Below the pieces are notes generated by a model. The model searched no databases, was not told the DNA's origin, and saw only the letters and a program-made list of their open reading frames with translations. From Streptomyces sp. NBC_00433 (GTDB lineage: Bacteria > Actinomycetota > Actinomycetes > Streptomycetales > Streptomycetaceae): a DNA stretch of 64,000 nt. Below, piece by piece: positions 21,707-39,994 of this stretch. Position 1 is the first letter of the stretch. The number at the start of each line of letters is the position of its first letter. Position numbers and translations under genes: made by a program. Location of the stretch: the NCBI GenBank assembly GCA_036015235.1, contig CP107926.1:372001-436000 (forward strand), in the 5' to 3' direction.

Positions 21707-25220
<3,514 letters not shown>

Positions 25221-27050: not shown

Positions 27051-28301
27051 ATGAACACTTCCGCCCGGCGGCGGTTTGCTGTCGCGTCGCTGGCCGCCGT
27101 GGTGGCGGCGTCCACGGCCACCGCGTGCGGGTCGTCGTCCTCGGACGGGTCGTCCGGCTCGACCGCGGCAGGCGGCACTTACACCGTCTGGGACCCCTAC
27201 CCGCAGTTCGACGGCACCTCCGACTGGGTGAAGCTGTTGGAGAGCTGCGGCAGCCAGGCCGGGGTGAAGGTGAAGCGGACGAGCTTCGACACCACGGATC
27301 TGACCAACAAGACGCTGCTCGCGGCGCAGCAGGGCGACTCTCCCGACGTCCTGATCGTCGACAATCCCGTCGTCTCCACGCTCGCCGACGCGGGTGTCCT
27401 GACGACCGCGGACGAGAACAAGATCGACACCTCCCAGGCGGAGCCGAACCTGCTGGCCGCGGGCCAGAGCGGCGGCAAGACCTACGGCACGCCCATCGGG
27501 GCGAACACCCTGGCGCTCTACTACAACAAGGACGTCCTGAAGGCCGCGGGCGTGGATCCGGCCTCGGTCAAGGACTGGACAACACTCAACGCGGCGCTGG
27601 CCAAGGTGAAGGCCGCGGGCAAGAAGGGCATCACCTTCTCCGCGATCGGCACCGAGGAAGGCAGTTTCCAGTTCCTGCCCTGGTTCTGGGGGGCGGGCGC
27701 GAAGCTGACGGACCTCGCCTCGGACCAGGCCGTCTCCGCCGTCACGCTGTGGAAGGACTGGCTGAAGGAGGGCTACGCGCCCAACTCGGTCATCAACAAC
27801 ACCCAGACCACCAGTTGGCAGGAGTTCGCCTCCGGTCAGTACGCCTTCGCCGAGAACGGCACCTGGCAGATGGCGAACGCCAAGAAGGCGGGCTTCGGCT
27901 ACGGAACGATCGCCATCCCCGCGGCTGACGGCAGCAACGCGCCCGCACCGACCGGCGGTGAGTTCGTCACCGTGCCCGTGCAGAAGGACACCGGGCGCTA
28001 CGCCGCCTCGGACAAGATCGTGACCTGCCTGACCGACGCGAAGAACCTGCTGGCCACCGACACGACGCTGTCCTACGTCGGGCCGACGAAGCAGGTCCAG
28101 GACCAGCAGGCCGCCGCCACACCCGAGCTGAAGATATGGGTGCAGGCGGTGCAGTCGGCCAAGGGGCGTACGAGCGACGACCTCGGCACGAAGTACCCCA
28201 AGATATCGGAACAGCTGTGGGGTGCCGTGCAGGCGGCACTGACCGGGAGCAAGTCGCCGAAGGACGCCCTTTCCGCCGCGCAGTCCTCCGCCTCCAAGTA
28301 G
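27051..28301 (+). CDS. carbohydrate ABC transporter, substrate-binding lipoprotein
   Basis: A 416-residue exported lipoprotein. The signal sequence ends in a lipobox (STATAC, lipidated Cys about 25) followed by a Ser/Gly-rich tether. The fold is the extracellular solute-binding protein family 1 type, with TYTVWDPYPQF at the start, NKTLLAAQQGDSPDVLIVDNP and TYGTPIGANTLALYYNKDVL as family landmarks, and aromatic residues (PWFWGAG) suited to sugar stacking. It captures oligosaccharides outside the membrane and hands them to the two permeases encoded next (28403 and 29392). It is the first gene of the operon behind the LacI-type site. No ATPase gene is present, so a shared MsiK-type ATPase encoded elsewhere is likely, as is usual in Streptomyces. 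Confidence 0.95.
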   Translation: MNTSARRRFAVASLAAVVAASTATACGSSSSDGSSGSTAAGGTYTVWDPYPQFDGTSDWVKLLESCGSQAGVKVKRTSFDTTDLTNKTLLAAQQGDSPDVLIVDNPVVSTLADAGVLTTADENKIDTSQAEPNLLAAGQSGGKTYGTPIGANTLALYYNKDVLKAAGVDPASVKDWTTLNAALAKVKAAGKKGITFSAIGTEEGSFQFLPWFWGAGAKLTDLASDQAVSAVTLWKDWLKEGYAPNSVINNTQTTSWQEFASGQYAFAENGTWQMANAKKAGFGYGTIAIPAADGSNAPAPTGGEFVTVPVQKDTGRYAASDKIVTCLTDAKNLLATDTTLSYVGPTKQVQDQQAAATPELKIWVQAVQSAKGRTSDDLGTKYPKISEQLWGAVQAALTGSKSPKDALSAAQSSASK

Positions 28302-28402
28302 TACCCGACCCAGCGCGTCGGACCGCGGCGCGGGCGGGGGCGTGGACGAACGGCCCCGCCCGCGCCGCCGACCGGCCTGCCCACAGAAGGACCGCGCCAT
28401 CG

Positions 28403-29395
28403 ATGAACAGCACCGCACCGATACCGGACGCCCCCGCGGGGTCCGGCGGAACGGGACCCGGCACCGTGCCGTCGCCCCCGCCCGGAGCGACGGGCCCACG
28501 CGGGCACGGCCCGCGCTCGCAGCAGTGGGCCGCCTGGGGCTTTCTGACTCCCGTCGTGATCTACCTCGGGGCCTTCTACGCCTACCCGCTCTACCGGAAC
28601 CTCGACCTGTCGCTGCGCGACTACACGGTCCGCTCCTTCGTGCAGGGCGACGCACCCTTCACCGGCCTGGCGAACTACCGCAAGGTCCTCGACGACCCGA
28701 CCTTCCTGCCGGCCCTGGAGCACACCGTCTTCTTCACCGGCGTCTCCCTCCTCTTCCAGTACGCGCTCGGGCTGGCCCTGGCGGTCTTCTTCGCACAGCA
28801 CTTCCGGCTGTCGGCCACGCTGCGCGCGCTGTTCCTGGTGCCCTGGCTGCTGCCGCTGATCGTGTCGGCGTCCACCTGGTCGTGGATGCTCAACAGCGAG
28901 TCCGGGATCGCCAACACCGCGCTGGGATGGCTGGGGATCGGGCCGGTGAACTGGCTGACCTCGCCCTCGTGGTCCCTCGCGTCGGTGACCATCGCCAACA
29001 TCTGGATCGGGATCCCGTTCAACCTCGTCGTCCTCTACAGCGGCCTCCAGGCGATTCCCGCGTCGCTGAACGAGGCTGCGGCCATTGACGGGGCGAACGC
29101 CTGGCAGCGCTTCTGGCGGGTGACCTTCCCGCTGCTGCGACCGGTCTCCGCGATCACCCTCCTGCTGGGCCTGGTCTACACGCTCAAGGTCTTCGACATC
29201 ATCTGGATCATGACCAAGGGAGGTCCCAGCGACTCCTCGACCACCTTCGCCACCTGGTCCTACCGGCTCGGCTTCGGCAATCTGCTGCCGGAGTTCGGCC
29301 CCGGGGCCGCGGTGGGCAACCTTCTCGTCGTGATCGCCCTCGTCTTCGGCCTGGTGTACATCCGCGCCCAGCGAAAGCAGGAGGTCAGCGCATGA
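28403..29395 (+). CDS. carbohydrate ABC transporter permease (first subunit)
   Basis: A 330-residue inner-membrane protein of the MalF/UgpA type. A Pro/Gly-rich cytoplasmic N-terminus of about 45 residues is followed by about six membrane helices, beginning WGFLTPVVIYLGAFYAYPLY. The ATPase-contact EAA loop reads EAAAIDGANAWQRFWRVTFP near residue 235. It pairs with the next gene, whose start overlaps this stop by four bases (ATGA), to form the translocation channel for the sugar delivered by the lipoprotein. Confidence 0.95.
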   Translation: MNSTAPIPDAPAGSGGTGPGTVPSPPPGATGPRGHGPRSQQWAAWGFLTPVVIYLGAFYAYPLYRNLDLSLRDYTVRSFVQGDAPFTGLANYRKVLDDPTFLPALEHTVFFTGVSLLFQYALGLALAVFFAQHFRLSATLRALFLVPWLLPLIVSASTWSWMLNSESGIANTALGWLGIGPVNWLTSPSWSLASVTIANIWIGIPFNLVVLYSGLQAIPASLNEAAAIDGANAWQRFWRVTFPLLRPVSAITLLLGLVYTLKVFDIIWIMTKGGPSDSSTTFATWSYRLGFGNLLPEFGPGAAVGNLLVVIALVFGLVYIRAQRKQEVSA

Positions 29396-30282
29396 GCGCC
29401 CACGCCGACACGGCCGCACGTCCCGAGCGTCCCGTCCGTCCCGGACGTGAGCCACGCCGCCGGCGCGTCACGGCAGGAGGCGGATGGAGGACGGCGCTGG
29501 GCCTGCTGTTCACCGGCGTGATGCTCTTCCCCGTGTACTGGATGGTCAACGTTTCCCTGACCCGCGACCAGGACATGCGCAAGACCCCGCCGGACCTCTT
29601 CCCCCGGCACATCACGCTCAAGGGCTACCGCGAGGTGCTCGACCAGCAACTGCCTTACCTCGGCACCAGTCTGGCCATCGGACTGGGCACCATCGCGGTC
29701 ACCGTCCTCCTCGCCGCACCGGCCGGTTTCGCGCTGGCCAAACTGCGGCCGCGCGGCGGAGGGCTCGTCAGCTTCCTGATGCTCGTGGCCCAGATGATCC
29801 CCGGGATCATCATGGCGATGGGCTTCTACGCCATCTACCTCAGCCTGGGGTTCCTGCACTCGGTTCCCGGCCTGATCGTCGCCGATTCCACCCTGGCCGT
29901 GCCGTTCGCCGTGCTCATCTTCACGGCCTTCATGTCCGGCATCCCCGCCGAACTGCTGCAGGCCGCGAGGGTGGACGGCGCCGGATCGCTGCGCGTCTTC
30001 TGGTCCATCGTGCTTCCGATGAGCCGCAACGCGATCATCACCGTGTCGCTGTTCGCCTTCCTGTGGTCCTGGTCGGACTTCGTCTTCGCCAGCACCCTGG
30101 ACAGCGGCGGCGCCCACCAGCCCATCACCCTGGGCATCTACCACTACATCGGCAACAACAACCAGGAGTGGAACGCCATCATGGCCACCGCGGTCGTGGC
30201 GTCACTGCCGGCCGCCGTGATCCTGGTCCTCGCCCAGCGGTACGTCGCCGCCGGCGTCACGGCCGGAGCCGTCAAAGACTGA
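29392..30282 (+). CDS. carbohydrate ABC transporter permease (second subunit)
   Basis: A 296-residue MalG/UgpE-type permease. After an Arg-rich N-terminus it has a GLLFTGVMLFPVYWMVNVSL first helix, AAPAGFALAKLRPRG in the second, and the EAA loop LQAARVDGAGSLRVFWSIVLP near residue 195. It overlaps the first permease by ATGA, so synthesis is coupled. With the 28403 product it forms the membrane channel of a CUT1-type importer. The cytoplasmic glycosidase at 30350 follows after about 70 bases. Confidence 0.95.
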   Translation: MSAHADTAARPERPVRPGREPRRRRVTAGGGWRTALGLLFTGVMLFPVYWMVNVSLTRDQDMRKTPPDLFPRHITLKGYREVLDQQLPYLGTSLAIGLGTIAVTVLLAAPAGFALAKLRPRGGGLVSFLMLVAQMIPGIIMAMGFYAIYLSLGFLHSVPGLIVADSTLAVPFAVLIFTAFMSGIPAELLQAARVDGAGSLRVFWSIVLPMSRNAIITVSLFAFLWSWSDFVFASTLDSGGAHQPITLGIYHYIGNNNQEWNAIMATAVVASLPAAVILVLAQRYVAAGVTAGAVKD

Positions 30283-30349
30283 CGGCAGGCTTCTCCACGC
30301 CGTGTCTTGGCTGAAACGCCCACATCCGAGAAGGATCGAGTTCACACCG

Positions 30350-32092
30350 ATGACCCTCACCCCGGACCGCAACGCCTTCGCGATTCAGGAGATACCTTTC
30401 AGCCGCCAGGGATCATGGTTCAACATCTCGCCGGTCCTCTCCCAGCACACCCGGGCCGAGGACCTGCATCTGGTCTCCCACCAGAACGGCATGCACGCGG
30501 TCCTGCGCTTCCTACCGCTCCATCCGGACACCGGTGAGCGCGCGGAGACCGTCTGGAAGGCGACTCCCACCACACTGGACTGGGAGTCCGACGGCGGCCG
30601 GATCTCGCTCGTCTACGAGAGCCCCGACACGGTCCGGTTGCGCGGTGAACACCTGGGCCTCGCGATCACGCCCGCGGACCGGGAGCTGACGCCCTTCACC
30701 GGCACCTACCTCTACCGCGACCCCGTCGACGGTTCCCACCAGTTCACCTCCTACGAGACGGGCCGCCGCTACCGCATCACCCTCCTGACGGGCGTGATCG
30801 CCGCCGCGGAAGGACTGGAGGGGCTTGCCGGCGTCGAACGCCGACTGGTCCTGTCCGGCCTGGCGGGCTGGGAAGCCGTCATCGAGGAGATCGACAGTGC
30901 ACGGCAGCCCTACACCGCCCCGGCGGACTTCGACGCCGCGGCGGTCTCACACGCCGGGTCCTTCCGCGAGTTCGCCGACGCGGTGGCTCCGCTGCCTGCC
31001 GCCACGGCACCGGCTGCCGAACTGGCGGCCTACGTCCTGTGGTCGGCGACCGTGCGTCCCGCCGGATTCCTGCGGCGCCCTGCCGTCCTGATGTCCAAGC
31101 ACTGGATGGACAAGGTGTGGAGCTGGGACCACTGCTTCAACGCCCTCGCGCTGGCCCCGGGCCTGCCGGATCTCGCGTGGGACCAGTTCCAGATCCCGTT
31201 CGACCACCAGGACGAGACCGGAGCCCTGCCGGACTCCATCACGCACTCCGAGGTGCTGTACAACTTCGTCAAGCCGCCCATCCACGGCTGGGCACTGCGA
31301 CGGCTGCGCGAACGCCTCCCCCGCCCGCTGGGGCCCGGCGAGCTGGGCGAGACCTACCGGCGCCTCGGGCGGTGGACCGACTTCTGGCTCCAGGCCCGCA
31401 CCGCACCCGGGGAAAGCCTGCCGCACTACCAGCACGGCAACGACAGCGGCTGGGACAATGCCACCGCCTTCGACGACCGGCGGGTGCTGATCACCGCAGA
31501 CCTGGCGGCCTTCCTCGTCCTCCAGCTGGCCGAACTGGCCGTGCTGGCCGACGACCTCGGGGACACCGAGGCCGCCGCCCGGCACCGGGGCAGGGCGGAC
31601 GGCCTCCAGGACGCGCTGCTCGCGGACCTGTGGTCGGGCGACCGGTTCCACAGCCGCTCTCCCCTCTCCCCTGACCCGTCCACCAGCCGCAGCCTGCTGG
31701 ACCTCATGCCGATCGTGCTCGGCGAGCGGCTCCCGCGCGACATCGGCGACCGCCTCGCCGAGCGAATCGCCTCGCACCTGACGCCGCACGGCCTGGCCAC
31801 CGAGCACATCGACTCGCCGCACTACGAATCGAACGGCTACTGGCGCGGCCCCATCTGGGCGCCGGCCACCGTCCTCATCGAGGACGGCCTGCGCAGGAGC
31901 GGCCACACCGACCTCGCCGACGACATCAGCCGACGATTCCGTGCCCTGTGCGAGAAATCCGGCTTCGCCGAGAACTTCGACGCCCTCACCGGCGAAGGGC
32001 TGCGCGACCGCGCCTACACCTGGACCGCCGGCAGCTACCTGCTCCTTGCCGACGACCACCACCGGCGTACGCGGGCAACGCCGCCGCTTTAG
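30350..32092 (+). CDS. cytoplasmic (alpha/alpha)6-barrel glycoside hydrolase (GH63/amylo-glucosidase-like)
   Basis: A 580-residue protein without signal peptide. The N-terminal 200 residues are beta-rich. About 225-575 is an (alpha/alpha)6 barrel with SKHWMDKVWSWDHCFNALAL, ALPDSITHSEVLYNFVKPP, HYQHGNDSGWDNATAF, SPHYESNGYWRGPIWAP and RAYTWTAGSYLLL, the pattern of MGH1-like/GH63-type glycosidases and glycogen-debranching relatives. The acid and base are probably the Asp of GNDSGWDN and a Glu/Asp of the late helices. It is the last gene of the importer operon, so it most likely hydrolyses the imported oligosaccharide in the cytoplasm. The linkage it cuts cannot be fixed from sequence. Confidence 0.82.
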   Translation: MTLTPDRNAFAIQEIPFSRQGSWFNISPVLSQHTRAEDLHLVSHQNGMHAVLRFLPLHPDTGERAETVWKATPTTLDWESDGGRISLVYESPDTVRLRGEHLGLAITPADRELTPFTGTYLYRDPVDGSHQFTSYETGRRYRITLLTGVIAAAEGLEGLAGVERRLVLSGLAGWEAVIEEIDSARQPYTAPADFDAAAVSHAGSFREFADAVAPLPAATAPAAELAAYVLWSATVRPAGFLRRPAVLMSKHWMDKVWSWDHCFNALALAPGLPDLAWDQFQIPFDHQDETGALPDSITHSEVLYNFVKPPIHGWALRRLRERLPRPLGPGELGETYRRLGRWTDFWLQARTAPGESLPHYQHGNDSGWDNATAFDDRRVLITADLAAFLVLQLAELAVLADDLGDTEAAARHRGRADGLQDALLADLWSGDRFHSRSPLSPDPSTSRSLLDLMPIVLGERLPRDIGDRLAERIASHLTPHGLATEHIDSPHYESNGYWRGPIWAPATVLIEDGLRRSGHTDLADDISRRFRALCEKSGFAENFDALTGEGLRDRAYTWTAGSYLLLADDHHRRTRATPPL

Positions 32093-32258: not shown

Positions 32259-32278
32259 CTATGGGAGCGCTCCCATAG
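32259..32278. promoter_or_regulatory. CebR-type box, 20-bp perfect palindrome
   Basis: CTATGGGAGCGCTCCCATAG contains TGGGAGCGCTCCCA, the published consensus for the Streptomyces cello-oligosaccharide repressor CebR. It lies after the glycosidase stop and before the 32321 hairpin, almost 0.9 kb upstream of the next recognised gene. The repressor is not encoded in the window. Confidence 0.85.
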
Positions 32279-32516: not shown

Positions 32517-32532
32517 GTGTTAGCGCTAACAC
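32517..32532. promoter_or_regulatory. GTGTTAGCGCTAACAC palindrome, LacI-family operator type
   Basis: A perfect 16-bp palindrome with the GCGC-type centre typical of LacI-family operators. It differs from the CebR-type box, from the 35074 site and from the AATCG-core sites near lacI. It lies about 40 bases before an AAGGAG ribosome site. Confidence 0.65.
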
Positions 32533-33171: not shown

Positions 33172-35061
33172 GTGCGCAGATCCGCGCGTATTTTCCGTCA
33201 CCCCGTCCTGCTGGCCGCTGCCGGGACCTTCGCACTCCTGGGGACAAGCGTGGGGATGATCCCCAGCGCCTCGGCCGCCGTCACCGCGTCGGTCTCGGTC
33301 AACGCCGGAACGAAGCTCGCGACGATCCCGACCACCGGCGTCGGGACGAACGTCGCGGTCTACGACGGGAACATGAACGGCTCCGCCATCCCCGGACTGC
33401 TCAGCGCCGCAGGCATCAAGACCGTGCGCTACCCGGGTGGCTCCTACGCCGACATCTACCACTGGCAGACCAACACCACCGAGGGCGGCTACGTCGCCCC
33501 CAACACCGACTTCGACACCTACATGGGCACGGTGAAGGCCGCCGGCGCCCAGCCCATCATCATCGCCGACTACGGGTCGGGCACCCCCCAGGAAGCCGCG
33601 GACTGGGTGCGGTACGCCAACGTCACCAAGGGCTACGGGGCGAAGTACTGGGAGATCGGGAACGAGGTCTACGGCAACGGCGAATACGGCTCCAACTGGG
33701 AGACCGACAAACACTCCAGCCACAGTGCCACGACCTACGCGACCAACCTGCTGCAATACGCCTCCGCCATGAAAGCCGTGGACCCGACCGTCAAGATCGG
33801 TGCGGTACTGACCACACCGGGGAGCTGGCCGGACGGCATCACCGGCCCCGGTGACACCCAGGACTGGAACCACACCGTGCTGTCCATCGCCGGCTCGAAG
33901 ATCGACTTCGTCATCGTGCACCACTATCCGACCGCGACCAGCCAGGCAGACCTGCTGGGCAGGCCGAAGGCCGAGATCCCGGGCATGGCGAGCACACTGC
34001 ACTCGCTGATCAATCAGTACGCGGGCGCCAACGCGGCCAACGTGGGCATCGCGGTGACCGAGGCCAACGCCACCTCCTACAAGGACACCGCGCCGAACGG
34101 CCTGTTCGCCCCGGACGAATACCTCACCTGGATGGAGAACGGCGCCTTCACCCTCGACTGGTGGGACATGCACAACGGCACCGACTGCAGCAAGGTGACC
34201 ACCGTCGAGGGCGCCACGGACTACGACGACTACGGGATGCTCTCCAGCGGGGCGTCCTGCGAACCGCCGCTCAACACCCCGTTCGCGCCCTACTACGGCA
34301 CCCAGATGATCACCAAGCTGGGGGCTCCCGGTGACACGCTGGTCCAGACGGGCAGTTCGGCTTCGCTGCTGACGGCGCACGCGGTGAAGCGGTCGAACGG
34401 CGACGTCGACGTCATGCTCATCAACAAGGACCCCAACAACGCCGCCACCGTGTCCCTGTCCTTCAGCGGCTTCGCCCCGTCCTCGTCCACGCCCACGGTG
34501 TACACCTACGCCAAGAACGCCGCCTCGATCACCTCCGCGGCCACGGGAACCGCCGCATCCCAGACCGTACCGGCCTACTCGATCGTCGTCGTGCAGCTGC
34601 ACCCCGCCACCGGGACGACCACCGGCGGCACCACCACCGGGACGACGACCGGGGGCACCACCACCGGGTCCACCACCGGCGGCACCACGACCGGGACGAC
34701 CACCGGCACCACCACGGGTACGACGACCGGCGGCACCACCACCGGGACGACGACCGGGGGCACCACGTCCGGGTGCACGGCCACCTACACCACCACGAAC
34801 TCCTGGTCCGGCGGCTTCCAGGGCGAAGTCAAGGTCACCGCCGGCAGCACCGCCGTCAACGGCTGGACCGTGCGTTGGACCCTCGGCAGCGGACAGACCA
34901 TCACCCAGGTCTGGAACGGCACCCTGACCACCAGCGGATCAACCGCAACCGTCAAGAACGCCACCTACAACGGCTCGCTCGCACCCGCCGCCTCCACCAC
35001 CTTCGGCTTCCTCGCCAACGGCACACCGAACACCCCCACCCCCACCTGCACCAGCCCCTGA
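33172..35061 (+). CDS. secreted GH51/GH44-like (clan GH-A) glycosidase with Thr-Gly linker and CBM2
   Basis: A 629-residue enzyme. GTG 33172 follows GGAGGGA and starts a signal peptide (RRSARIFRHPVLLAAAGTFALLG ... SASA, about 35). The barrel (about 45-370) has KTVRYPGGSYADIYHWQTN, the acid/base in KYWEIGNEVYGNGEYG and the nucleophile in GIAVTEANATSY, with VHHYPT near the active site. A beta-sandwich follows (about 380-475). The pattern resembles alpha-L-arabinofuranosidases of GH51 or cellulases of GH44, and the family is not settled. A repetitive GGTTTGTTTG linker joins a C-terminal CBM2 (about 535-629, TNSWSGGFQGEVKVT, W residues for cellulose/xylan). The CBM2 DNA is identical to that of the 36881 gene. 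Confidence 0.85.
   Translation: MRRSARIFRHPVLLAAAGTFALLGTSVGMIPSASAAVTASVSVNAGTKLATIPTTGVGTNVAVYDGNMNGSAIPGLLSAAGIKTVRYPGGSYADIYHWQTNTTEGGYVAPNTDFDTYMGTVKAAGAQPIIIADYGSGTPQEAADWVRYANVTKGYGAKYWEIGNEVYGNGEYGSNWETDKHSSHSATTYATNLLQYASAMKAVDPTVKIGAVLTTPGSWPDGITGPGDTQDWNHTVLSIAGSKIDFVIVHHYPTATSQADLLGRPKAEIPGMASTLHSLINQYAGANAANVGIAVTEANATSYKDTAPNGLFAPDEYLTWMENGAFTLDWWDMHNGTDCSKVTTVEGATDYDDYGMLSSGASCEPPLNTPFAPYYGTQMITKLGAPGDTLVQTGSSASLLTAHAVKRSNGDVDVMLINKDPNNAATVSLSFSGFAPSSSTPTVYTYAKNAASITSAATGTAASQTVPAYSIVVVQLHPATGTTTGGTTTGTTTGGTTTGSTTGGTTTGTTTGTTTGTTTGGTTTGTTTGGTTSGCTATYTTTNSWSGGFQGEVKVTAGSTAVNGWTVRWTLGSGQTITQVWNGTLTTSGSTATVKNATYNGSLAPAASTTFGFLANGTPNTPTPTCTSP
34613..34770 (+). repeat. low-complexity Thr-Gly linker DNA
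   Basis: Tandem units of the ACGACCGGCGGCACC kind encode (GGTTTGTTTG)n between the catalytic part and the CBM2. Shorter versions occur at about 36284-36360 and 37595-37705. The repeat makes slippage and recombination between the three genes likely. Confidence 0.85.
34742..35053 (+). repeat. 312-bp CBM2 repeat, copy A
   Basis: Compared base by base with 37677-37988, this segment shows no difference over 312 bp. It covers the end of the linker and nearly the whole CBM2. The two parent genes are otherwise unrelated (glycosidase and SGNH esterase). Recent duplication or gene conversion is the likely cause. Confidence 0.9.
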
Positions 35062-35073
35062 GGTGTACCGATA

Positions 35074-35087
35074 TGTGAGCGCTCACA
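35074..35087. promoter_or_regulatory. TGTGAGCGCTCACA perfect palindrome, LacI-family operator
   Basis: A 14-bp perfect palindrome equal to the core of the symmetric lac operator. It lies 12 bases after the stop of the GH51/44-like gene and about 120 bases before the GH54 start, so it probably controls the latter. A degenerate version stands before GH5 (23227). Confidence 0.75.
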
Positions 35088-35206
35088 GCATGTCCCGGCG
35101 GCTCTCGGCGCCTGTCGCGGAGCCACCTGTCACCTCGACCGGCCATGTCCGGCAAGCGCCGCTCCGTGCGGCAACTCCCCCACACGACCCTCCAAGGAGG
35201 ACGCTG

Positions 35207-36667
35207 ATGTCGTCATCAGCAACTGCCTGGCTCTCACACCACGCCAGACGATGGGCACTCGCCGCTTGCGCGGCCGTGGCTCTCGTGGCCGGACTGCTCG
35301 TCGGTGGCACGACCACTTCGCAGGCGGCCGATACCCAGCCCTGCGACATCTACGCGTCAGGTGGCACGCCCTGCGTGGCGGCGCACAGCACGACGCGGGC
35401 GTTGTACTCGTCGTACAACGGGCCTCTGTACCAGGTCAGGCGTTCCTCGGACAACAGCACCCGCGACATCGGGGTGCTGAGTGCCGGTGGTTACGCCGAC
35501 GCGGCCTCGCAGGACTCCTTCTGCTCCGGGACCTCGTGCGTGATCACCGTGATCTACGACCAGTCCGGGCGGAGCAACAACCTGACCCAGGCGCCCGCCG
35601 GCAGTGCCGCCGGCGGCCCGGACAACCTCGCGAACGCGACCGCGGCGCCGACGATGCTGGGCGGGCACAAGGCGTACGGCGTGTTCGTCGCCCCCGGCAC
35701 CGGCTACCGCAACAACCACACCAACGGCATCGCCACGGGTGACAACCCCGAGGGCATGTACGCGATCTTCGACGGCACCCACTACAACGGCGGCTGCTGC
35801 TTCGACTACGGCAACGCCGAGACCGACAGCCGCGACGACGGCAACGGCACGATGGAAGCCATCTACTTCGGCAACATCAAGGTCTGGGGCTACGGTTCCG
35901 GGAACGGCCCGTGGATCATGGCCGACCTGGAGAACGGCCTGTTCTCCGGCGTCAACCAGCACCTCAACTCCAACGACCCGACCATCAACTACCGCTACAC
36001 CACCGCCATCATCAAGGGCAAGCAGAACCACTGGGCCATCCGCGGCGGCAACGCGCAGTCGGGGAACCTGTCGACCTTCTACGACGGGGTACGCCCCAAC
36101 GTCTCGGGCTACAACCCGATGAGGAAGCAGGGCGCCATCATCCTCGGCACCGGCGGCGACAACAGCAAGGGCGCCCAGGGCACCTTCTACGAAGGCGTCA
36201 TGACCTCCGGCTACCCGACGGACGCCACCGAGAACGCCGTCCAGGCCAACATCACCGCGGCCGGATACGGGTCGAACACCGGGGGCACCACCACCGGCGG
36301 GACGACCACCGGCACCACGACGGGCGGGACGACCACGGGCGGGTCCACCCAGGGCAGCACCGGCGGCACCTCAAGCGGGTGCACGGCCACCTACAGCACC
36401 ACCAACTCCTGGTCCGGCGGCTTCCAGGGCGAAGTCAAGGTCACCGCCGGCAGCACCGCCGTCAACAGCTGGACGGTCACCTGGACCCTCGGCAGCGGAC
36501 AGACCATCACCCAGGTCTGGAACGGCACCCTGACCACCAGCGGATCGACCGCGACCGTCAAGAACGCCTCCTACAACGGCTCGGTCCCACCCTCTACCTC
36601 AACCACCTTCGGCTTCCTCGCCAACGGCACACCGAACACCCCCACCCTCACCTGCACCAGCGCCTGA
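35207..36667 (+). CDS. secreted GH54 alpha-L-arabinofuranosidase (AbfB type) with CBM2
   Basis: A 486-residue exported enzyme. ATG 35207 follows AAGGAGG by 6 bases. The signal peptide ends at SQAADT (about 41). The catalytic beta-sandwich (about 43-370) is of the ArabFuran-catal family: PCDIYASGGTPCVAAHSTTR, then ALYSSYNGPLYQVRR, DSFCSGTSCVITVIYDQSG, the GGCCFDYGNAET block that carries the nucleophile Glu and the rare vicinal disulfide, and YNPMRKQGAIILGTGGDNS. The fungal C-terminal arabinose-binding domain (CBM42) is replaced here by a GGTTTGG linker and a CBM2. It would remove arabinose side chains from arabinoxylan or arabinan. An operator-like palindrome lies upstream. Confidence 0.93.
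   Translation: MSSSATAWLSHHARRWALAACAAVALVAGLLVGGTTTSQAADTQPCDIYASGGTPCVAAHSTTRALYSSYNGPLYQVRRSSDNSTRDIGVLSAGGYADAASQDSFCSGTSCVITVIYDQSGRSNNLTQAPAGSAAGGPDNLANATAAPTMLGGHKAYGVFVAPGTGYRNNHTNGIATGDNPEGMYAIFDGTHYNGGCCFDYGNAETDSRDDGNGTMEAIYFGNIKVWGYGSGNGPWIMADLENGLFSGVNQHLNSNDPTINYRYTTAIIKGKQNHWAIRGGNAQSGNLSTFYDGVRPNVSGYNPMRKQGAIILGTGGDNSKGAQGTFYEGVMTSGYPTDATENAVQANITAAGYGSNTGGTTTGGTTTGTTTGGTTTGGSTQGSTGGTSSGCTATYSTTNSWSGGFQGEVKVTAGSTAVNSWTVTWTLGSGQTITQVWNGTLTTSGSTATVKNASYNGSVPPSTSTTFGFLANGTPNTPTLTCTSA
36377..36660 (+). repeat. diverged CBM2 repeat, copy B
   Basis: The CBM2 of the GH54 gene aligns with copies A and C along its whole length. Long runs are identical (for example 36407-36460, and the stretch around GGACAGACCATCACCCAGG), with clusters of differences such as AACAGCTGGACGGTCACC. 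This mosaic pattern suggests partial gene conversion. Confidence 0.8.
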
Positions 36668-36812
36668 CACGGAAGCGCGGGTGAGTGCTCCGGCACTCAC
36701 ACACGGCCTGGAGCCGAAGCAGCAAAGGCCCAGCTCCGGGAGCAGTCCGTCGAGATCCGGCCGGCAACGGCCGACCCGTTCAAGCGATGAAGCGCGATCC
36801 GCATCACCCGAT

Positions 36813-36856
36813 GGCCGGGCGGTCCCGCCCCGCACAACAGGCAGGACCGCCCGGCC
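36813..36856 (+). terminator. 13-bp-stem hairpin between GH54 and CE3-like genes
   Basis: GGCCGGGCGGTCC (36813-36825) pairs perfectly with GGACCGCCCGGCC (36844-36856) around an 18-base loop. It lies just before the ribosome site of the next gene and may terminate GH54 transcription or fold in the leader of the esterase mRNA. Confidence 0.65.
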
Positions 36857-36880
36857 CTCTCCAGCAGACGAGGAAGCCCT

Positions 36881-37996
36881 ATGAAAAGAACTCTGACCGC
36901 TCTCCTGCTCGGCGTGACGGCAGCGTTGTGCGTCCCCGCCATCGTGTCGACGCCGGTCTCGGCGGCGCCCGCGGCGTCCACGACCCCTCTGAAACTGATG
37001 CCCCTCGGCGATTCGATCACCTGGGGAGTCGGAAGCAGCACGGGCAACGGATACCGTGCCGCGCTGCACGACGAACTCACAGCCGACGGCCACCCTCTCG
37101 ACTTCGTCGGTTCGCTGCGCGGTGGCAGCATGTCCGATCCCGACAACGAAGGGCACTCCGGCTACCGCATCGACCAGATCGCCGCCCTGGCCGACGCAGC
37201 CCTGGCCCGCTACCAGCCCGACGTGGTGACCCTGGAGATCGGGACCAACGACCTGAACGGCAACTACCAGGTCTCCACCGCCACCACACGGCTCCGATCG
37301 CTGGTCGACCAGATCACCCACGACGTCCCGAACGCCACCGTACTGGTCGCCTCGCTCGTCGTCTCCACAAGCGGAACGGAGGAGCGGTACCGCACCGCCT
37401 ACAACCAGGCCATCCCCGGCCTCGTGCAAAGCGAACAAGCCGCAGGCAAGCATGTCGGCTACGTGGACATGGGCGCGGTGACCACCTCGGACCTCTACGA
37501 CACCCTGCACCCGAACGACACCGGCTATCGGAAGATGGCCGACGCCTTCCACAAGGGCGTCCAGACCGCGGACAGTGCCGGATGGCTCGGCGGCGGGACC
37601 ACCGGCGGCACCACGACCGGGGGCACCACCACCGGCGGGACGACCACCGGCGGGACGACGACCGGGGGCACCACGTCCGGGACGACGACCGGGGGCACCA
37701 CGTCCGGGTGCACGGCCACCTACACCACCACGAACTCCTGGTCCGGCGGCTTCCAGGGCGAAGTCAAGGTCACCGCCGGCAGCACCGCCGTCAACGGCTG
37801 GACCGTGCGTTGGACCCTCGGCAGCGGACAGACCATCACCCAGGTCTGGAACGGCACCCTGACCACCAGCGGATCAACCGCAACCGTCAAGAACGCCACC
37901 TACAACGGCTCGCTCGCACCCGCCGCCTCCACCACCTTCGGCTTCCTCGCCAACGGCACACCGAACACCCCCACCCCCACCTGCACCAACGCCTGA
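36881..37996 (+). CDS. secreted SGNH/GDSL esterase (CE3 acetylxylan esterase-like) with CBM2
   Basis: A 371-residue exported esterase. The signal peptide is MKRTLTALLLGVTAALCVPA... to about 31. The SGNH domain (about 35-230) has block I MPLGDSITWG (nucleophile Ser), block III EIGTNDLNG and block V DTLHPNDTGY with the catalytic Asp and His, plus the Gly of VGSLRGG; this arrangement fits CE3 acetylxylan esterases. A GGTTTGG linker and a CBM2 form the C-terminus. It would deacetylate xylan so that the xylanases can act. ATG follows GAGGAAG. It is separated from the GH30 gene by only 12 bases, which suggests co-transcription. Confidence 0.92.
   Translation: MKRTLTALLLGVTAALCVPAIVSTPVSAAPAASTTPLKLMPLGDSITWGVGSSTGNGYRAALHDELTADGHPLDFVGSLRGGSMSDPDNEGHSGYRIDQIAALADAALARYQPDVVTLEIGTNDLNGNYQVSTATTRLRSLVDQITHDVPNATVLVASLVVSTSGTEERYRTAYNQAIPGLVQSEQAAGKHVGYVDMGAVTTSDLYDTLHPNDTGYRKMADAFHKGVQTADSAGWLGGGTTGGTTTGGTTTGGTTTGGTTTGGTTSGTTTGGTTSGCTATYTTTNSWSGGFQGEVKVTAGSTAVNGWTVRWTLGSGQTITQVWNGTLTTSGSTATVKNATYNGSLAPAASTTFGFLANGTPNTPTPTCTNA
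37677..37988 (+). repeat. 312-bp CBM2 repeat, copy C
   Basis: Identical over its full length to 34742-35053. The sequences diverge immediately outside (AACGCC against AGCCCC at the 3' edge, and different linker units at the 5' edge). Confidence 0.9.
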
Positions 37997-38008: not shown

Positions 38009-39943
38009 ATGACATCACTGCAGGACGCATCGAAGAGCGCAGGACCGAAGTCCCCGAGCCGGAGGTCTGTGCTGGTGGCGTTGGGGGTGCTGCCGGTCCT
38101 TTCCGTCGCGTTGCCGCATTCCAGTGCGGCAGCCGCGGCGGCGGCCGTGGTCGTCGACCCGTCCGCGCGGCGGCAGACGATCCGGGGCTTCGGCGGTATG
38201 AACCACCCGGCCTGGGCGGGTGACCTGACAGCTGCCCAGCGGGACACCGCCTTCGGGAACGGCACCGGCCAGCTGGGATTCTCGATCCTGCGCATCCACG
38301 TCGACGAGAACAAGGCGAACTGGGGTGCGGAGGTGGCGACCGCGCAGCGGGCGGTGGCCGACGGGGCGATCGTCTTCGCATCGCCGTGGAATCCCCCTGC
38401 CAGCATGGTCGAGACGTTCACCCACGGGAGCCAGACCGACGCCAAGCGCCTGCGGCACGACATGTACGCCGCCTACGCGCAGCATCTGAACGACTTCACC
38501 GCGTTCATGAAGAGCAACGGGGTGGATCTGTACGCCATCTCGATCCAGAACGAGCCCGACTACGCCTCGACGTGGACATGGTGGACCGCGAGCGAGATCG
38601 TCACCTTCCTGCGCAACAACGCCGGCTCGATCAGCACCAGGGTCATCGCCCCGGAGTCCTTCCAGTACATCAAGAGCATGTCGGATCCGATCCTCAACGA
38701 CTCCACAGCCCTCGCCAACATGGACATCCTCGGCGCCCACCTCTACGGCACGGCGTTCTCGAACTTCCCCTACCCCCTGTTCCAGCAGAAGGGGCAGGGC
38801 AAGGAACTGTGGATGACCGAGGTCTACTACCCCAACAGCACCGACTCCGCCGACTTGTGGCCCGCGGCACTCGGCGTCGGGGAACACATGCACCACGCGA
38901 TGGTGGACGCCGAATTCCAGGCGTACGTGTGGTGGTACATCCGGCGCAGCTACGGCCCGATGCGCGAGGACGGGCAGATCAGCAAGCGGGGCGCCATGAT
39001 GGCGCACTTCTCGAAGTACATCCGCCCCGGATACGTGCGCATCAACGCGACCTCCAACCCCCAGACCAACGTGTACACCTCGGCCTACACCGGTGGCTCC
39101 AAGGTGGTCATCGTGGCCGTGAACAAGGCGACCGGCGCGGTCAGCCAGCAGTTCACCCTGGCGAACACCACGGCGACCGGCCTGGCCTCCTACGTCACGG
39201 ACTCCAGCAGGACCCTCGCGACCCTGAGCGGGCCCAGCCTGTCGGGCGGCACCCTGTCCGCGACGCTCCCCGCGCAGAGCATCACCACCTTCGTCGTCAC
39301 CGTAGGCACCTCCGGGGGAACGGACACCACCGCGCCCACCGCACCCGGCACCCCCACCGCCGGCGCGGTCACGTCCACCTCGGTCGCTCTGAGCTGGGGA
39401 GCCTCCACCGACAACACGGGTGTGACCGGCTACGACGTGGTGCAGGTCAGCGGCAGCACCGAGACCACCGCCGCGACCTCCACCACCACCGGAGCCACCG
39501 TCACCGGTCTGAGCGCCGGCACCGCCTATACCTTCGCCGTCTACGCACGCGACGCGGCCGGCAACCGCTCCACCCGCAGCGGCACCGTCACCGCCACCAC
39601 CAGCAGCACCGGCGGCTCGACAGGCACCTGCGGGATCGGCTACCAGGTCACGGGAAGCTGGAGCGGCGGCTTCCAGGGCGAGATCGTCATCAACAACACC
39701 GGCAGCGCCGCACTCACCGGCTGGACCCTGGCCTTCACCTTCACCGCCGGCCAGACCATCACCCAGATGTGGGGCGGCACCCCCGCACAGAGCGGCAGCA
39801 GCGTGACCGTGACGCCGGTGGACTACACCCGCACCATCCCCGCCGGCGGCTCCGTCAGCGTGGGCTTCCTCGCCAACCAGGGCAGCACCAACCCCGCCCC
39901 GACCACCTTCACACTCAACGGCGGCACCTGCACCACCACCTGA
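38009..39943 (+). CDS. secreted GH30 xylanase-like enzyme with FN3 and CBM2 domains
   Basis: A 644-residue enzyme. The N-terminus has a Tat-like SRRSVLVALGVLPVLSVAL signal ending near residue 47. The GH30-type barrel plus beta-sandwich (about 50-435) shows IRGFGGMNHPAW, SILRIHVDENK, SPWNPPASM, the acid/base in SIQNEPDYA, the nucleophile in LWMTEVYYP and WWYIRRSYGPMREDG. These resemble the glucuronoxylanase subfamily XynC, where an Arg near the active site binds glucuronate. A fibronectin type III domain (about 440-530, TAPGTPTAGAVTSTSVALSW) and a CBM2 of a different, more diverged type follow. It should cleave substituted xylan. It is 12 bases behind the esterase and followed by a strong hairpin. 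Confidence 0.92.
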   Translation: MTSLQDASKSAGPKSPSRRSVLVALGVLPVLSVALPHSSAAAAAAAVVVDPSARRQTIRGFGGMNHPAWAGDLTAAQRDTAFGNGTGQLGFSILRIHVDENKANWGAEVATAQRAVADGAIVFASPWNPPASMVETFTHGSQTDAKRLRHDMYAAYAQHLNDFTAFMKSNGVDLYAISIQNEPDYASTWTWWTASEIVTFLRNNAGSISTRVIAPESFQYIKSMSDPILNDSTALANMDILGAHLYGTAFSNFPYPLFQQKGQGKELWMTEVYYPNSTDSADLWPAALGVGEHMHHAMVDAEFQAYVWWYIRRSYGPMREDGQISKRGAMMAHFSKYIRPGYVRINATSNPQTNVYTSAYTGGSKVVIVAVNKATGAVSQQFTLANTTATGLASYVTDSSRTLATLSGPSLSGGTLSATLPAQSITTFVVTVGTSGGTDTTAPTAPGTPTAGAVTSTSVALSWGASTDNTGVTGYDVVQVSGSTETTAATSTTTGATVTGLSAGTAYTFAVYARDAAGNRSTRSGTVTATTSSTGGSTGTCGIGYQVTGSWSGGFQGEIVINNTGSAALTGWTLAFTFTAGQTITQMWGGTPAQSGSSVTVTPVDYTRTIPAGGSVSVGFLANQGSTNPAPTTFTLNGGTCTTT

Positions 39944-39949
39944 CCACCA

Positions 39950-39994
39950 GCGGTGCTGTACAGAGCGCCGGCCCGGCACCCTGTACAGCACCGC
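39950..39994 (+). terminator. 14-bp-stem terminator after the GH30 gene
   Basis: GCGGTGCTGTACAG (39950-39963) pairs perfectly with CTGTACAGCACCGC (39981-39994). It begins 7 bases after the GH30 stop and closes the polysaccharide island. Confidence 0.85.

Follow-up and report, generated by a model that had tools for sequence, protein, structure and literature searches.

Two genes with unrelated catalytic parts in a 64,000-nucleotide stretch of Streptomyces sp. NBC_00433 (hereafter the window, bases 372001-436000 of a genome assembled as one 8.99-Mb contig) shared a tract of 312 bp at every base. The tract comprised the final part of a Thr/Gly linker and almost the whole of a carbohydrate-binding module of family 2 (CBM2). 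It was found in a GH51-like arabinofuranosidase gene and in a GDSL/SGNH esterase gene, whose CBM_2 matches both exceeded the Pfam cut-off. It very probably arose by recent homologous recombination between neighbours that have only the Thr/Gly linker and the CBM2 in common. The observations on which this reading rests are the limits of the tract, the pairing of modules by genome at a second locus, the identity at synonymous positions and an unchanged gene order. The CBM2 copies of the GH51-like, GH54 and SGNH esterase genes are referred to as copies 1, 2 and 3. The elements concerned, in window coordinates, are the following:

33172..35061, + strand: GH51-like alpha-L-arabinofuranosidase gene with Thr/Gly linker and C-terminal CBM2 copy 1 (open reading frame; CBM_2 1.1e-23)
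34612..34773, + strand: Thr/Gly repeat linker of copy 1, GC 0.77 (from the translation)
34742..35053, + strand: exact 312-bp tract, left copy (pairwise match)
34774..35058, + strand: CBM2 copy 1 (CBM_2 match)
35207..36667, + strand: GH54 arabinofuranosidase gene (ArabFuran-catal) with Thr/Gly linker and CBM2 copy 2 (PF09206 1.1e-161; CBM_2 3e-23)
36380..36664, + strand: CBM2 copy 2, 93.3% identical to copies 1 and 3 (sequence comparison)
36881..37996, + strand: GDSL/SGNH esterase gene with Thr/Gly linker and CBM2 copy 3 (PF13472 3e-24; CBM_2 5.2e-24)
37595..37708, + strand: Thr/Gly repeat linker of copy 3, GC 0.80 (from the translation)
37677..37988, + strand: exact 312-bp tract, right copy (pairwise match)
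37709..37993, + strand: CBM2 copy 3 (CBM_2 match)

Pairwise comparison of 34742-35053 with 37677-37988 gave 0 mismatches in 312 bases, and the next base differed at both ends. The left edge lay inside the Thr/Gly linker, the linkers of copies 1 and 3 being unlike in length and phase. At the right edge, the final 8 bases, stop codon included, held 2 mismatches (GCCCCTGA vs ACGCCTGA), and the DNA 3' of the two stop codons was unrelated. The identity that an earlier note on this DNA had reported, synonymous positions included, was therefore exact and maximal, and its description of the catalytic parts as those of a glycosidase and an SGNH esterase agreed with the GH51-like and GDSL/SGNH assignments. 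Its account of two copies holds for copies 1 and 3 but overlooked a third in the intervening GH54 gene (266/285 to both) and a more distant CBM2 in a GH30 gene (about 64%, 0.64-0.65 to copies 1-3). CBM_2 scores of these four genes ranged from 82.5 to 100 bits, for a cut-off of 24.

The window genome (G000; other genomes are designated likewise by G and a number) harbored 43 CBM2 copies, giving 903 pairs. Only two pairs reached an identity of 1.000 over the Pfam-defined module, namely copies 1 and 3 of the window and a GH10/esterase pair located elsewhere on the contig. Chance identity was ruled out, the median for far pairs being 0.595. Over the CBM2, copies 1 and 3 agreed at 283 of 285 positions, compared with 266 of 285 between copy 1 and its GH51 counterpart in G021. 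An artefact in which assembly or polishing replaced one copy by the sequence of the other is very improbable. Identical repeats of this kind do break draft assemblies, as two segments of G009 (G009:C44:88-360 and G009:C23:88-360) both matched the GH10/esterase-type CBM2 near contig starts. The window genome, however, is one contig, the tract is bounded by differing linkers and 3' ends, and the same pattern was found at the GH10/esterase pair in 8 assemblies with 8 different sequences. A short repeat of this kind, bounded by unique sequence, is unlikely to reflect a collapse artefact.

The window pair was present in no other genome examined, and the sister-genome test was therefore run on the second pair, which consisted of divergent GH10 xylanase and polyhydroxybutyrate-depolymerase-like esterase genes (4557318-/4560615+ in G000):

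G000:C1:4557297-4560908, divergent: GH10/esterase pair in the window genome, outside the window

Genomes were found by the catalytic part of the esterase, not by its binding module, which gave 14 genomes of the genus including that of the window (E up to 1e-60). A GH10 gene adjoined the esterase in 8 of the 14, a count that leaves out G014 and G045; the stretches examined in G008 and G050 yielded no GH10 gene, the contigs of G009 broke at the repeat, and nothing matched the GH10 query near the esterase of G048. In all eight, the two genes pointed away from each other and carried exact inverted repeats at their outer ends (335, 406, 313, 204, 363, 142, 220 and 66 bp).

Within genomes, the two CBM2s were 97-100% identical in seven cases and 91% in the eighth (290/291 in G000, 291/291 in G006, 290/291 in G021, 284/294 in G012, 297/297 in G005, 287/294 in G007, 296/297 in G023 and 263/288 in G016). 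Between genomes, the CBM2 of the same enzyme was 0.677-0.866 identical (16 comparisons), and the catalytic DNA of the pair was 0.75-0.95 identical to that of G000. In the CBM tree, GH10 and esterase modules paired by genome in 8/8 cases, and a grouping by enzyme, with the GH10 modules held together, was rejected (difference in log-likelihood 749; approximately unbiased test, p-AU 4e-5). The homogenised tract ran from the stop codon back through the CBM2 into the linker and ended 0-19 bases after the stop; in G016, identity of at least 95% was confined to the last 108 bases. The CBM2s also diverged between species faster than the catalytic parts (in G012, 0.951 for the GH10 catalytic DNA vs 0.845 for the module), as if new versions kept arriving, each being passed on to both genes.

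Strong purifying or codon-usage selection could in principle keep such modules alike without any exchange of DNA, and the two enzymes probably share a type of substrate. This explanation is scarcely credible given the third codon positions, at which 80/96 to 99/99 agreed within genomes (91-99 of 97-99 in 7/8) vs 0.567-0.804 for the same enzyme between G000 and the other species. Because of this contrast, protein-level selection cannot explain the identity, and purifying selection alone was rejected on the third positions of the GH10/esterase pair.

An inversion switch of the GH10/esterase segment was also considered, and was rejected as gene order was unchanged wherever it could be read. The order LacI/cupin - GH10 - esterase - PGRP was never inverted. 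The flanking LacI, cupin, PGRP and PBP genes kept to a constant side wherever they were found, hence no sign of inversion; this applied to G000, G006, G021, G012, G016 and G023, while G005 and G007 gave no flank match. A further 20 loci were compared (19 from outside the genus, plus that of G048), and both genes were present in two only, each from a family member outside the genus, with CBM identities of 0.60 in G300 (divergent genes, short linkers) and 0.70 in G073 (same strand, Thr/Gly linker on the GH10 gene only).

Judged from these comparisons of sequence, the GH10 and esterase CBM2s are in concerted evolution by domain-limited gene conversion. Closeness within genomes, synonymous identity and a neighbourhood without rearrangement were all found for the pair; the non-reciprocity of conversion is not visible from sequence. 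Homogenisation did not extend to all neighbouring copies in the window (copy 2, GH30 CBM2), which is an expectation for arrays and does not define a pair. The comparison with sister strains proposed in the earlier note indicated copies evolving together at the GH10/esterase pair, a stronger result than that for the window pair itself.

In the window, the relatives of the three genes pointed to exchange of the module. Eight relatives of the SGNH esterase were scanned (seven from other genomes and a second copy in the window genome, with catalytic parts 75-84% identical), and all eight proteins ended in a Ricin_B_lectin domain and none in a CBM2. With a ricin-type tail in 8/8 relatives, the window esterase gene acquired its linker-CBM2 tail, which most relatives are without, by module exchange, a conclusion that is well supported. 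The GH54 gene probably gained its tail likewise: a ricin-type C-terminus was found in all four related GH54 proteins scanned, and G016 harbored a GH54 gene with the window-type CBM2. Among relatives of the GH51-like gene, the window-type CBM2 was found in G021 and G006, another CBM2 in three scanned proteins and a ricin-type domain in two. Because the same gene carries this CBM2 type in G021 and G006 and none of the related esterases does, the arabinofuranosidase gene is the probable donor and a plausible local source of the tail.

The CBM tree joined copies 1 and 3 (support 98/96) and left copy 2 unresolved. A clade of the three GH51-attached modules was rejected (p-AU 0.0037), and the test of a clade uniting the window copies spoke neither for nor against it (p 0.499). 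That all three of these copies are still being homogenised was dropped as an explanation, copy 1 being no closer to copy 2 than to its counterpart in G021 (93.3% in both cases). The module exchange by recombination claimed in the earlier note was thus borne out by the different module of the esterase relatives, by the closeness of copies 1 and 3 and by a second neighbouring pair homogenised in 8/8 related genomes with both genes adjacent. Of its wording "recent or continuing", the first term clearly applies to copies 1 and 3 and the second to the GH10/esterase pair; for copy 2 neither term clearly applies.

The arrangement of sister loci brought in another possible, though not favored, history, in which recombinational insertion or deletion at CBM2 placed the GH54 and esterase genes between GH51-CBM2 and GH30, the identity being a by-product of duplication. 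In G021, 12 bases separated the GH51-CBM2 gene from the GH30 gene after it, neither GH54 nor esterase gene being present between them, and this 12-base leader had the same bases as those after copy 3 in the window. A similar leader, GAAGGGAGAGCC, was found 3' of the GH51-CBM2 stop in G006. Either G021 may have lost the block or the window lineage may have gained it. However, the 2 mismatches in the last 8 bases, against none in the preceding 312, imply that copies 1 and 3 did not arise by one clean duplication. A GH54-CBM2 gene was likewise found before GH30 in G016, where the sequence preceding it could be aligned with that following copy 1; GH54 may therefore be older at the locus. Nor can insertion or deletion account for the inverted GH10/esterase pair. 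Conversion and insertion/deletion at CBM2 are hard to separate in the window, and both may have occurred. Upstream of the GH54 gene of G016 (L060 3800-3930), the segment aligned with the DNA after copy 1 resembled a degenerate 3' remnant of a CBM2 gene.

Neighbourhood was associated with high identity. CBM2 identities of at least 0.88 were reached, in three single-contig genomes, by 6 of the 27 pairs lying less than 6 kb apart (near pairs) and by 2 of the 1579 far pairs. Both thresholds were set post hoc, and the pairs share members and are not independent. When Thr/Gly runs of at least 25 residues were present on both sides, 4 of 5 near pairs were homogenised (2/3, 1/1, 1/1), and two more near pairs, at 0.936, involved copy 2, with a run of 24. 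The near pairs that stayed diverged included some without long Thr/Gly runs, namely those of the GH30 CBM2, which was not homogenised despite adjoining the window trio, and two N-terminal CBM2s (6349871/6350709) with their counterparts in G006 and G021 (0.593, 0.582 and 0.593).

Besides the post hoc thresholds, several points weigh against recombination between linker-bearing neighbours. One near pair (1312728/1314174) with Thr/Gly runs of 43 and 45 residues stood at 0.545. The GH54 copy, adjacent and provided with a Thr/Gly linker, was not freshly homogenised. No other genome examined had the esterase at the window locus, hence no orthologous window pair, and repeated conversion is accordingly displayed by the GH10/esterase pair only. 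The window pair itself comes from one assembly of one strain of the species. As for the linker, one far pair with Thr/Gly linkers reached 0.910. That repetitive linker DNA helps recombination is suggested by correlation only, and the earlier note's phrase "helped by the flanking Thr-Gly repeat DNA" has 4/5 near pairs in its favor but was not established in view of the 0.545 and 0.910 counter-examples. A broader proposal is tentative: Thr/Ser-Gly linker DNA and CBM2 would together form a recombination unit in the genus, pulling linker-bearing neighbours into one shared and re-copied module. If so, substrate targeting would belong to the locus and catalysis to the gene, and the linker repeat would have a role at the DNA level besides that of a flexible tether.

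A second occurrence of a 338-bp segment comprising the GH30 CBM2 and its 3' flank, 95.6% identical, lay at a distance of 1.18 Mb, where the GH30 catalytic part was missing:

Window 39614-39951 and G000:C1:1592105-1592442: 338-bp recurrence; the upstream frame at the distant copy looks unrelated

This recurrence speaks for a linker-CBM2 unit that moves as a dedicated mobile element or cassette. Such an element is nevertheless most unlikely: each tract is contained in an open reading frame and stops in the linker or near the stop codon, and no terminal repeats were seen by eye at the ends (transposase genes were not searched for).

Under the preferred reading of recombination between neighbours, the shared tract would arise by gene conversion, or by an exchange that also inserted or removed genes between the repeats. 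Copying would proceed by RecA-type gene conversion, with the arabinofuranosidase gene as the probable donor of the window tract and the GC-rich repetitive linker DNA possibly helping pairing. Several arabinoxylan-acting enzymes of one locus would thereby share one binding module, with catalytic parts evolving independently.

Concerning the genes themselves, the catalytic part of the GH51-like protein matched arabinofuranosidases of the PDB weakly (7e-9) and scored 29.9 bits with NCBIfam ArfA, vs a cut-off of 625; a Pfam scan of the protein gave no catalytic family match, and the GTG start at 33172 was the analyst's choice. The GH54 assignment follows PF09206, the catalytic domain of that family. 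The nearest solved structure to the SGNH esterase was 2vpt (3.4e-31), presumably of esterase family CE3, and the enzyme is probably an acetyl-xylan esterase. The cluster continued downstream with:

38009..39943, + strand: GH30 glucuronoarabinoxylan endoxylanase gene (XynC type) with FN3 and distant CBM2 at 39626-39940 (NF052681 1.2e-220; fn3, CBM_2)

Upstream (27051-32092), genes coding for an extracellular solute-binding protein and a MGH1-like/trehalase-like glycosidase were found, and together with these the cluster looks like one arabinoxylan-use locus. Palindromes TGGGAGCGCTCCCA and TGTTAGCGCTAACA were located at 32262-32275, 32518-32531, 35074-35087 and 23227-23240 of the window; for TGTTAGCGCTAACA, there were two relatives with 2 mismatches, and 3 matches compared with 0.01 expected. 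They look like LacI-type operators, TGGGAGCGCTCCCA being the CebR box, and may co-regulate the cluster.

Modular enzymes are usually explained by rare and ancient shuffling, whereas here a module was homogenised repeatedly between unrelated neighbours of inverted orientation in 8 species, with the catalytic parts diverging as normal. The GH10/esterase pairs provide natural replicates for the rate of domain-limited conversion in GC-rich actinobacteria. Phylogenies of binding modules, short-read assemblies and orthology calls near such genes can mislead. No report of genus-wide, per-species homogenisation of a binding module was found in the open-licence literature, which is weak evidence of absence, subscription papers being mostly outside it, and no paper there combined the host genus name and xylanase.

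As its title states, the paper of Kellett et al. (1990, Biochem J 272:369) dealt with identical cellulose-binding domains in adjacent xylanase and arabinofuranosidase genes, so that identical modules in adjacent xylan genes were already known. The window pair resembles that xylanase B/arabinofuranosidase case of Pseudomonas fluorescens subsp. cellulosa, as far as its title describes it, in near-adjacent genes, unrelated catalytic domains and an identical module. It differs in that the module here is a CBM2 behind a Thr/Gly linker, the host is an actinobacterium and two sets of neighbours are involved; in one set, which is inverted, homogenisation took place species by species. Mammalian gene pairs under gene conversion (PMC2720389) likewise display paralogues closer within a genome than orthologues, but here one domain of otherwise unrelated proteins was homogenised. 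Going by its title, a study of domain shuffling in host adherence receptors (PMC8860441) appears to concern the exchange of a single domain, with conversion discussed; that system is one of animal receptors, while the present one involves unrelated bacterial enzymes.

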